Shown here: positions 1,871 to 5,618 of the stretch, in pieces
Numbering within the stretch: position 1 is the stretch's first letter
Layout of the letters: every line of letters begins with the position of its first letter
DNA from: a virus
IMG/VR virus record: IMGVR_UViG_3300013129_000014
Location: 1-34,681 of that record
DNA: 34,681 nt
Reading direction: 5' to 3' (one strand)
Position numbers and translations under genes: made by a program
The notes under the pieces: model-generated
The model's database searches: none
What the model was told of the DNA's origin: nothing
What the model saw: the letters and a program-made list of their open reading frames with translations, nothing else

Positions 1871-2017
1871 TCAAACAGGTCCAAGGGCCTGTAAAATTTC
1901 AGAGGCCTGGGCCTTGTCTGACTTTCCTGGATTTATTAACGAAGCGAGCGCACCCACCGCATCTGGTTCTACTCCAATTTTGCGAGCAATATCCTGAATC
2001 CAGTCCGATGCTGTACA
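1871..2017 (-). CDS. -1 frame extension of the preceding gene (48 residues)
   Basis: Reading resumes at TGT (2017-2015) after a one-base backward slip on T TTA AAT and ends at TGA 1873-1871. The encoded segment includes DWIQDIARKIGVEPDAVGA followed by a second and third helix-like stretch, ending ILQALGPV; it looks like a small three-helix domain. The frame has a stop codon (TAA) shortly upstream of the slip site and no ATG, so it is not an obvious independent gene. It fills nearly all of an otherwise 114-base gap in a very dense gene cluster. Confidence 0.55.
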   Translation of the reverse strand, partial: CTASDWIQDIARKIGVEPDAVGALASLINPGKSDKAQASEILQALGPV

Positions 2018-2625
2018 TTTAAAGGAACGGTTCTCACACGTTCCATCGCAAGTTTAACGGCAGATTTATTAGACGTCTCCATATCAGTCTCCTTTGGGTA
2101 CGAAAGACCCTGAACTTCTTGGCCAAACGGATCGACAAGTTTCACCGCTTCCAATCCCTTAGGTTTGCCAGAAGGGATCGTATACTTCCCACTGTCCACA
2201 AACACTCTTTTAAAGTCTTCAGGATTGTATGGCGTACCTTTAGGTTCCGAGCTCCCTGCTACATGGACCAGAATGTATTCAGTCTTTAATTGGTTTTTAT
2301 AGGGCTCTAATGATGGTCCTTGAAGTACACCGAACTTTTCCCGTACTGTCTCCGGGCGAATCTCTGCAGGACCATCATTTTTAAAGGCCTGGTCTGAATA
2401 ATGAACCCGTTCCGTACCATTCTGCCTGGAACCATCAGGATTCAAATTCACAGAGTAATAATAAAAATCAGGCGTCTCTTTTCCAGGAACGGAGAAAAGA
2501 ACCTGATAAGCCACCCAGGTGAAATTAGAACCGGATGGGCCTTTTATGGCCTCCGGCCTATGAGGATCCGCCCGGAAGTATAGCCGGGCTTCCTGCAAAT
2601 GATATTGATCTTCTCTGGAGCCCAT
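1969..2625 (-). CDS. Uncharacterised virion-associated protein, zero-frame product (218 aa)
   Basis: This is the last gene of the minus-strand baseplate run, and its start overlaps the stop of the 997-residue gene as TAATG. I do not recognise the family. The protein is mixed polar, with many Tyr, Pro and charged residues (for instance TPDFYYYSVNLNPDG near residues 51-65) and no signal peptide or membrane segment. The last fifteen zero-frame residues (VQHRTGFRILLAKLE) look unlike the rest. Just before them is the slippery heptamer T TTA AAT at 2023-2017, and the -1 frame continues as a convincing protein sequence for another 48 codons. The biologically full-length product may therefore be 251 residues, made by programmed frameshifting; a one-base indel would look the same. 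Its place at the end of the cluster, facing the fibre gene, suggests a role in fibre attachment or assembly, but this is only positional. Confidence 0.7.
   Translation of the reverse strand: MGSREDQYHLQEARLYFRADPHRPEAIKGPSGSNFTWVAYQVLFSVPGKETPDFYYYSVNLNPDGSRQNGTERVHYSDQAFKNDGPAEIRPETVREKFGVLQGPSLEPYKNQLKTEYILVHVAGSSEPKGTPYNPEDFKRVFVDSGKYTIPSGKPKGLEAVKLVDPFGQEVQGLSYPKETDMETSNKSAVKLAMERVRTVPLNVQHRTGFRILLAKLE
2017..2023 (-). promoter_or_regulatory. Slippery heptamer T TTA AAT, candidate -1 ribosomal frameshift site
   Basis: The minus strand reads TTTAAAT, in exactly the X XXY YYZ phase relative to the zero frame (codons CCT TTA AAT). Directly upstream, GGAACG and CGTTCC (2044-2039 and 2029-2024) can form a 6-bp hairpin. 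I found no strong hairpin downstream by eye. Confidence 0.55.
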
Positions 2626-5618
2626 TATTCAGGCTTTCTTAGCGGCCGGCCGGGCATCTCGAAGATGTCCACTGTATCCGTACCTGCTACATGGTCGAAG
2701 AACCGTGAATTTGACGTGAGGTCGTTTTCACTGCTGACCACCATCAAATAAAGACGACCAGTGTCATCTTTATCAAAGACGTAAGTCTGATACGTCTTCT
2801 GGTCCTGACCCTTAATCACAAGACGTTCGAACTTCAGACCAAGAGCGCCCGAACCATAAATAGCACCGGGAATCGCTACTTTTGAACGCCCACGATCGGC
2901 CGCACTGACTCCAAGGACTACGGTCGAATCAATGCCCTGGACCGGGGAAATTACCCGAGTCTCCAGGACTGGATATGCATCCGAAACGGCCGTTGTAATG
3001 GCCTCGCCGGCACAAAGGGCATCAGTGGCCTTATCAAGGGTTGGGAGTCGATCAACGACGTTGGCCGGGGCCAACTGGGGCACATTGGCATTGCAAATTT
3101 TGTATGTGGCCCCCGGGGCACTGAAGTTGACCGGTTCGGTTACATACAGGGCAAGGTCTCCGCCGACAGCAGCGACGACATACCGTGAAGAATCATATGC
3201 ATCCGCGCTGATTGTGGATCCCACCTTTGCCACTTGAGTCCACTGGGTACTTCCACCGGTAATGACCGTACTATCAAAGGTGAAATTCGCCGTACCGGTT
3301 GAATAGGTTTGATCCTGCATGAGGCCTGATCCGGCAGTAGTCACCAAGGCGGGACCAGTGGTGAGCACAAAACCAGCTGCAGTGCTATCGAGCAGGCCCT
3401 GATAGGGCAGGGATCGATAGAAAACCGAGTATGCCTCTGTATCGGTGATGGCAGATTTTACCAGAACCGGAACAGAAATCGTGGTTGATCCACCAGTAGG
3501 GGAATCCGTCAAGTGTGCAGTAAATTTATTTTTCGGATTTGCTGGAATATTTCTATTTGTATCCAACATGGTATAGCGCTGAATCCCAGATCCCATATTA
3601 TAATAAGCAAACCCGTATCCATTTAATACTTTTGAACTACCAATTGCAAGGATCGCTTGATTCGTAGTATCAAAAGTATATGTGGAAGAACCTGTTGAGG
3701 TGGTCACCAGTTCTTTCATCTCATAACAATCCACAATGCCGCGAGCCTGGTTGTTCCCCACAAACGTCTTCCCTGCCGTATACAGGGTCATCATCACGTC
3801 TTTGCCCGTGTCGACAATCGTCGGGGAAGTCATCGTAATCGTGTAGTTCGCGGAATCTCGAGCGACTTCATATGTCGTAGACGCCCCGTCTATGATAATA
3901 TCCGCAATACCCAGAATCTGGTATCCATTAAGCGTCCTGGGAAACACCAACGTGCCGGACCCATTTCCGATCATGTGATGTTCCATCTGATGTCCGAAAT
4001 CCCAGGGCTCCGCGGTTTCACACCCCATGGCATACAGATAATCGAATTTGGTCCCGTCATTGGTTAGGATCGGCGCCGCATTTCGAACCCGAATACCTTC
4101 CCTGGTCATTGCATATGAGAGCGACGAGGAGTCCGTAAGATTGCGGGATTCAAGGAACCGAATCGGCAGATCCGTCAAACCATGATCGGCGGACGTTGGG
4201 AACTGTATACTGTAATTGATCGAACAGGGCCGTGTGGGCGTCCCGATGAACGCTACAGTCACAGAAGATGTCCCGGTTCCCGTTACCGTGTAATTCACAC
4301 CAACGGTTAAGGTCGCTCCATTACCATCGCATACATTATCTACGGAAGCGATGACAGTGCCTGCCGGGTAAACGGCGGTATCCGTTGTGCTTATGTTCCC
4401 ATTACCTGCGGGAACACTCAGAATTGTATCTTTCTGAAGAATTGCCGCATTGGAGAATACCCGGCAAACTCCATCTCCTTTGGCGATTGTTGTCGTTCCA
4501 GGATAGTCCGTTGGCGCCACTGCGTCCGCCACGGTCATGTACGTTCCAATATGATCCTCACCAAGGAGGGACTGGGTGATTTTTCCCGGGACTTCACCAC
4601 GAATGAGTTTGTTAAAAGCCTGCTCGGCCATGGCCTTGAGATCCTGGCTAACCGGGACCAGATGACGCATGTCCAGAATGTCCTCCGCAACAATCCAGTC
4701 ATTGTACAGGTTATCAGGACGATCTGAGGCATACCCATTATTGTGATCCACCCGGGATTTTCCAGCTCCATTGGTATGGGTATCAATGCTGAAAGCCCAG
4801 GTATTTCTGCGTGCCACGGCAAACATCGGGATAGCGTAGCTGTAACCATCGACTGTATTCAATGTCTGCTGAGACGCCGTATCCCCATTACCCGCACGCC
4901 AAAGTCCAAGGTCACCGGCAACTGGCTGAAACACGGCCAGCGAACAACTCAGGGGGCTTCCCAATCCAGCCTGGGCAAAGACCCTATAAGGATCAAAGCC
5001 ATTTGGGTAGGTGATGATATCACTTGGTGCTACTCGAATACGATACTGAACCTGAATACGAAGAGTCGTCTCAATACCGGCCGCCGGATCAATCAGATCA
5101 TTGGTGGGATTAATACCACCATAAGCGGCATTCCCATGCTTATACACCACATCTCCGGGTTTCACCAGCTGACGCCAAACTTCGAGAAACACAAAATCCG
5201 TACGATGGGCAACCGTCGGAGGTGTCGGAAGGATGATGATATTATTCTCATCCGTCAGGGAGTTGGTTCCCTGGACCACGACCCGAAAGCCATCAACCCA
5301 GGCCGCCAGGCGTTCGGTCACGATCCCCTTATCAGAAGCCATCAGCTTGAAGGTGTTATCCGCATAGGAAGATGAGCACAGGACATCACCGGCCACGGCC
5401 TGGTCCTCTGTAACGGTGTCAGAAATGGAATTACCAAGGACTTCCCAACCGCTAGGGAGACGACGGGCATTACCCCGGCCGAAATCCGCAGCAAGGCGGC
5501 CTTCCAGGTTGACCTCACAGGAAAGCGGGGGTTTCTTTTTCTGATAGACCACCGATTCAAAGCTGCGGTCAGTAGGGTCAAGGACTCTTGTCTGATTGAG
5601 GCCCAGATTGTCGCTCAT
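2625..5618 (-). CDS. Large baseplate/tail structural protein, propeller-less paralogue of the gene at 11082-15125
   Basis: This 997-residue protein is beta-rich. Its first ~330 residues are clearly homologous to the 1347-residue protein: shared features are DPT-x-(R/G)-x(2)-(F/Y)-(E/D)-(S/T)-VV-(Y/F)-QK near 13-27, KPP-x(4)-E-NL, LPSGW, VF-(L/F)-EVWR, R-(I/V)-Q-(V/I)-QYRIR and (Y/W)-AIPMF-x-VARRN. In the paralogue a beta-propeller is inserted between EVWR and QYRIR; here a short loop takes its place. The middle and C-terminal parts contain repeated Ig-like modules, including one with VNYTVTGTGTSSVTV and one GTANFTFDSTVITGGSTQW module that also occurs twice in the giant protein. The N-terminal pattern recalls phage proteins annotated DUF4815, but I cannot confirm this. 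The ATG overlaps the upstream stop as ATGA, with GGAAGG 11 bases upstream. A fibre-attachment or peripheral wedge role is inferred from position. Confidence 0.8.
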   Translation of the reverse strand: MSDNLGLNQTRVLDPTDRSFESVVYQKKKPPLSCEVNLEGRLAADFGRGNARRLPSGWEVLGNSISDTVTEDQAVAGDVLCSSSYADNTFKLMASDKGIVTERLAAWVDGFRVVVQGTNSLTDENNIIILPTPPTVAHRTDFVFLEVWRQLVKPGDVVYKHGNAAYGGINPTNDLIDPAAGIETTLRIQVQYRIRVAPSDIITYPNGFDPYRVFAQAGLGSPLSCSLAVFQPVAGDLGLWRAGNGDTASQQTLNTVDGYSYAIPMFAVARRNTWAFSIDTHTNGAGKSRVDHNNGYASDRPDNLYNDWIVAEDILDMRHLVPVSQDLKAMAEQAFNKLIRGEVPGKITQSLLGEDHIGTYMTVADAVAPTDYPGTTTIAKGDGVCRVFSNAAILQKDTILSVPAGNGNISTTDTAVYPAGTVIASVDNVCDGNGATLTVGVNYTVTGTGTSSVTVAFIGTPTRPCSINYSIQFPTSADHGLTDLPIRFLESRNLTDSSSLSYAMTREGIRVRNAAPILTNDGTKFDYLYAMGCETAEPWDFGHQMEHHMIGNGSGTLVFPRTLNGYQILGIADIIIDGASTTYEVARDSANYTITMTSPTIVDTGKDVMMTLYTAGKTFVGNNQARGIVDCYEMKELVTTSTGSSTYTFDTTNQAILAIGSSKVLNGYGFAYYNMGSGIQRYTMLDTNRNIPANPKNKFTAHLTDSPTGGSTTISVPVLVKSAITDTEAYSVFYRSLPYQGLLDSTAAGFVLTTGPALVTTAGSGLMQDQTYSTGTANFTFDSTVITGGSTQWTQVAKVGSTISADAYDSSRYVVAAVGGDLALYVTEPVNFSAPGATYKICNANVPQLAPANVVDRLPTLDKATDALCAGEAITTAVSDAYPVLETRVISPVQGIDSTVVLGVSAADRGRSKVAIPGAIYGSGALGLKFERLVIKGQDQKTYQTYVFDKDDTGRLYLMVVSSENDLTSNSRFFDHVAGTDTVDIFEMPGRPLRKPE

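Follow-up and report, generated by a model that had tools for sequence, protein, structure and literature searches.

Whether the 3' end of a phage gene may be read in two frames is the question raised by a packed cluster of large virion-type genes on the minus strand of a 34.7 kb virus record (positions 1-34,681, the whole stretch of DNA analysed and hereafter the window). An earlier note on this DNA had proposed that a programmed -1 frameshift at a T TTA AAT heptamer appends a 48-residue domain to the product of the last gene of this cluster. The proposal holds in part: the phase of the heptamer, the coding-like -1 frame and the helices predicted for its product speak for it, whereas conservation and, among nested folds, a stimulatory structure were not found. 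Low-level -1 slippage at the heptamer is therefore presented here as the leading mechanism, at a confidence somewhat short of even.

The gene end and its two frames

The gene under study, an ORF of 218 aa, closes a tail/baseplate-type cluster, and its ATG shares one base with the stop codon of a preceding 997-aa gene. Distant relatives of the latter are found in jumbo phages and include gp420 of Bacillus phage G as well as a 'tail fiber protein' of Tunturiibacter phage Tunturi_5. Further relatives of the 997-aa gene reside on contigs L088, L089, L090 and L091; these were assigned to MAGs of Altiarchaeales, KSB1 and Asgard archaea, probably through misbinning of phage contigs. The 218-aa ORF itself matched no PHROG or Pfam entry, comparison of its structural model returned no match at E 0.001, and the profile of its family contained no stretch conserved enough for scanning. 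Downstream of the cluster end a convergent gene comes next, and no tape measure gene follows. The relevant features are the following:

2625..5618, minus strand: upstream 997-aa virion-type gene, the query used for finding relatives
1969..2625, minus strand: 218-aa ORF (gene A plus C-terminal module), final gene of the tail/baseplate-type cluster
2041..2082, minus strand: start of the C-terminal module, METSNKSAVKLAME, in the zero frame, alignable with MSNIHRKAVNLVKE of relative L003
2044-2039 and 2029-2024, minus strand: arms of a 6-bp hairpin, GGAACG/CGTTCC, the 3' arm abutting the heptamer
2023..2017, minus strand: heptamer T TTA AAT, with T at 2023, TTA at 2022-2020 and AAT at 2019-2017, in the X XXY YYZ phase of the 218-aa ORF
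1969..2019, minus strand: zero-frame tail NVQHRTGFRILLAKLE plus TAG, including TGFRIL
1871..2017, minus strand: -1 frame continuation CTASDWIQDIARKIGVEPDAVGALASLINPGKSDKAQASEILQALGPV, 48 residues plus TGA (1873-1871), coding-like and predicted to form three helices
Predicted tryptic peptide of the -1 product: IGVEPDAVGALASLINPGK
1865-1855 and 1844-1834, no strand assigned: 11-bp inverted repeat GTGTCCGAATT...AATTCGGACAC between the convergent genes

The heptamer thus lies exactly where the earlier note had placed it, in the zero-frame phase required for tandem slippage, and inside the only stretch that permits a frame switch. In total, 37 in-phase X XXY YYZ sites, five of them TTTAAAT, were counted in 10,851 codons, so that 0.09 such sites are expected by chance in the overlap of 27 codons. 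Hence, the presence of the heptamer is by itself not decisive as evidence for more than chance. A second in-phase T TTA AAT occurs in the window at 19128-19068, 20 codons short of the end of gene 20567-19068; there the -1 frame contains no stop in the 75 codons that precede the zero-frame stop and ends at most 5 bases from it.

Folding of the RNA around the heptamer was ordinary when compared with shuffled sequences (z -0.2 to -0.75, nested folds only), and neither a match to an Rfam element around the heptamer nor, by eye, a clear SD-like sequence upstream of it was found. The hairpin that the earlier note had described directly upstream of the slip site is present, yet with its 3' arm abutting the heptamer it sits upstream and not downstream of the latter, which is why it does not constitute a classical stimulator; given this upstream position and its ordinary energy it was discarded in that role.

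The -1 frame stops (1871) 5 bases from the inverted repeat at 1834-1865, which contains the stop codon of the convergent + gene and was examined for a T-run, none being there. This convergent gene (682-1854) appears by eye to encode a nucleoside deoxyribosyltransferase-like domain fused to a NUDIX-like domain; it matched one PHROG of the function-unknown class, and no viral relative of it was found. A + ORF at 5-652 comprises repeated GGSERMRIDT(S/A)GNVGIG units, which by eye are of a kind known from tail-fibre proteins.

Coding-like character of the -1 frame

One account of this locus takes 1969 as the true stop, with the -1 frame being a chance ORF in the gap of 114 bases between two convergent genes. 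The length of the open frame is uninformative in this respect, since 7% of simulated tails remain open for at least 48 codons in the -1 frame, so that an open frame of this size is common and fits an ordinary gene end. The codon content, on the contrary, argues against it. With a codon model for which the other genes served as the training set, and with the switch between frames scored in bits, a change to the -1 frame is favoured by 11.5-11.7 bits. A comparable score is reached by 0.5% of simulated gene ends, in which real gene tails ran on into Markov sequence and for which the best switch point and direction of shift were taken; because three gene ends in the window have free downstream space, this figure is nearer 2% once corrected for picking from the whole window. 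The joint frequency under dinucleotide shuffling was 0.0067. Over 49 codons the -1 frame scores 0.14, as compared with an in-frame median of 0.235 and an off-frame 99th percentile of -0.006, and G occupies codon position 1 in 47% of codons after the zero-frame stop versus 33% in genes. The earlier description of 48 convincing codons is supported by these values.

In addition, the same switch statistic was applied as a control to the homologous gene of six relatives, each with its own codon model. It amounted to 15.2 bits in L009 and 16.3 bits in L102, where coding in the -1 frame is confirmed by homology, and to 0.3-3.2 bits in L002, L003, L004 and L010, which are devoid of -1 coding, while the two + genes of the window gave 3.4 and 0.2 bits. 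With its 11.7 bits the 218-aa gene lies near the two former relatives and above the other controls, and its -1 frame thus behaves like real code; these controls are few, and the model for L102 derives from only 882 codons. Taken together, the -1 frame is likely to have coding character, a conclusion in which we place good confidence. The point of the switch is less sharply defined: its likelihood is flat from about 2053 to 1996, a span that includes the heptamer but does not single it out.

The zero-frame tail, which the earlier note had called unnatural, indeed has the lowest codon score among 16 gene ends (-0.24, at roughly the first percentile when ranked among in-frame windows, which again counts against an ordinary end). 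The last 16 codons of other genes nevertheless reach -0.20, and this proximity renders the low score a weak point; moreover, the tail includes TGFRIL, a weak match to a motif of the family that is described below. For the 48-residue extension a single-sequence prediction yielded three helices (mean pLDDT 68.9), in agreement with the three-helix-like segment anticipated earlier and at odds with a chance ORF. The family body of the 218-aa protein is beta-rich (AlphaFold2 mean pLDDT 74).

A family with a frame-changing C-terminal module

Homologues of the 218-aa protein were identified in six genomes (L002, L003, L004, L009, L010 and L102), all of them distant, at 24-35% identity. The family shares a common layout, in which the beta-rich body is followed by a variable C-terminal module consisting of an AVRLAxE-type helix together with (S/T)GGFDIMKK, which is present in one to three copies. 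In five genomes (L002, L003, L004, L010 and the window) the first helix of this module is fused to the body in the zero frame. L009 and L102 instead carry the module as a separate ORF in the -1 frame, the ATG of which overlaps the preceding stop:

L009:11600-11745 and L102:1990-2190: C-terminal module split into gene A and gene B, with ATGA stop-start overlap

Fusion in five genomes versus an ATGA-type split in two implies that the frame of the module changed during evolution. An in-phase A AAA AAT was noticed in L009 just before the stop, where the -1 frame enters the second gene; slippage is possible there besides reinitiation. The motif (S/T)GGFDIMKK occurs up to three times in the tail (L002:13054-14025, L004:13042-13953, L010:11132-11950), and sites of the GGFDIM or DGFDIM type, sought as a strict DNA pattern with GGFDIM written GGN TTY GAY ATH ATG, turned up once in each of three relatives' records.

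The split arrangement suggests a further explanation, namely that the -1 frame of the window is a short gene of its own, expressed by reinitiation like gene B of the two relatives, which carry such a -1 gene behind the homologue. An ATGA-coupled pair of this type is not present at the end of the 218-aa gene. The -1 frame contains neither ATG nor TTG, a start at its sole GTG, within predicted helix 2, would yield 28 residues, and the module corresponding to gene B of the relatives is read in the zero frame here, all of which makes a separate gene highly improbable. As the -1 frame thus lacks a usable start for the whole extension, ribosomes must come from upstream if it is expressed.

In the window, a frame change would sit later than in L009 and L102, after the AVKLAME helix and at the place where GGFDIMKK is expected. 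There the zero frame reads TGFRIL, which matches weakly (p of about 0.003 per site, or about 0.1 allowing for places), and the -1 frame holds no match to the motif. A weak zero-frame match at the expected place is in line with an ordinary gene end, as is the fact that in the relatives the protein terminates in a module of the GGFDIMKK type, the extension being absent from all of them. The motif was not retained as settling the matter for the zero frame, since it scored -0.8 versus 1.9-35.5 for the relatives in a leave-one-out comparison. Balancing these points against the codon content and the predicted helices, we regard an ordinary end at 1969 as unlikely.

A search for homologues of both versions, which the earlier note had suggested, disclosed no relative of the extension and no retention of the heptamer. 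The four fused relatives lack the extension and have different tails, so neither the heptamer nor the trans-frame product is conserved among these distant relatives. The 49-aa -1 peptide gave nothing credible in viral contigs, phages, plasmids, the relatives' records, Pfam, PHROGs and PDB, and an exact 21-mer from within the -1 frame was absent from viral contigs. A PDB match of the -1 peptide at 9e-06 was rejected: it involved a designed helical-repeat protein and was summed over five repeats, none of which was significant alone.

Proposed slippage, a possible one-base break and known recoding

According to the mechanism proposed, the 3' end of the gene would be read in two frames. Most ribosomes would stop at 1969 and release the 218-aa protein, while a minority would slip back by one base at T TTA AAT, with tRNA-Leu moving from UUA to UUU and tRNA-Asn from AAU to AAA. 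The slipped ribosomes would then add the 48-residue three-helix tail, giving rise to a minor, longer virion or assembly protein. Both the slipping of ribosomes into the -1 frame and the existence and role of this product are inferred. In E. coli, U UUA AAU slips weakly, yielding a few per cent of frameshifting even with a pseudoknot. A low-level product, similar in kind to the coat extensions of T3 and T7, would be the most to expect.

The main competitor of slippage is a one-base indel, whereby body and 48 codons constituted one ordinary frame that was broken by mutation or by an assembly error. Several observations accord with this view: the flat likelihood of the frame change about 2053-1996 leaves the heptamer without distinction, no stimulatory structure was predicted among nested folds, and the C-terminal tail is highly variable and has changed frame before (L009, L102), so that breaks there are tolerated. 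An indel would, however, reduce the in-phase heptamer to a coincidence (~9%); each of the 15 remaining minus-strand genes in the window is intact, and thus the contig is not error-prone, and the unbroken form occurs in no relative. Apart from the coincidence of the heptamer, an indel accounts for the frame break as well as slippage does. The sequences at hand do not discriminate between the two, and the indel is considered the less likely, albeit a serious contender. The weights assigned to slippage, indel and chance ORF are judgements and were not computed.

Extension of virion proteins by -1 frameshifting has been demonstrated for coat gene 10 of T3/T7 and for Lactobacillus phage A2 (PMC5009743). 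These cases resemble the slippage proposed here in that a -1 shift near the end of a virion gene generates a minor, C-terminally extended form; they differ in that their products were demonstrated, whereas the extended product of the 218-aa gene is a predicted one, and neither a stimulator (nested folds) nor conservation was found for it. Moreover, the T3 extension is Ig-like, in contrast to the predicted three-helix tail. The gpG/gpG-T pair of lambda likewise involves -1 slippage at a gene end in the tail region (PMC5009743), but it precedes the tape measure gene, while the 218-aa gene follows baseplate/fibre-type genes; being neither upstream of a tape measure gene nor recognisably similar to a chaperone family, it does not qualify as a chaperone of the lambda G/G-T type. 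In the Listeria phages A118, A500 and PSA, capsid and tail-shaft proteins also acquire C-terminal extensions by recoding (PMC5009743), though the tail-shaft shifts are +1 events on a proline codon before the stop, unlike the candidate -1 tandem slippage. The nearest parallel within the family is gene A/gene B of L009 and L102, in which a C-terminal part is likewise encoded in the -1 frame; there it starts at its own ATG, for which the window has no counterpart.

A broader reading, which we advance only as a speculative one, is that a tail/baseplate protein of a jumbo phage gains a new three-helix tail through a -1 frameshift specific to its lineage, in a family whose module has changed frame more than once, being fused, ATGA-split or reached by slippage. 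Were slippage not to take place, the locus would be ordinary, its gene broken by a single-base change or its -1 frame open by chance. If it does, -1 recoding of virion proteins, known from capsid, tail-tube and chaperone genes, would also embrace a gene that closes a baseplate-type cluster in a jumbo phage. Among the relatives one would then have a natural series, with one and the same C-terminal module being fused, ATGA-split or frame-shifted, illustrating that recoding, gene fission and gene fusion can substitute for each other at almost the same site.
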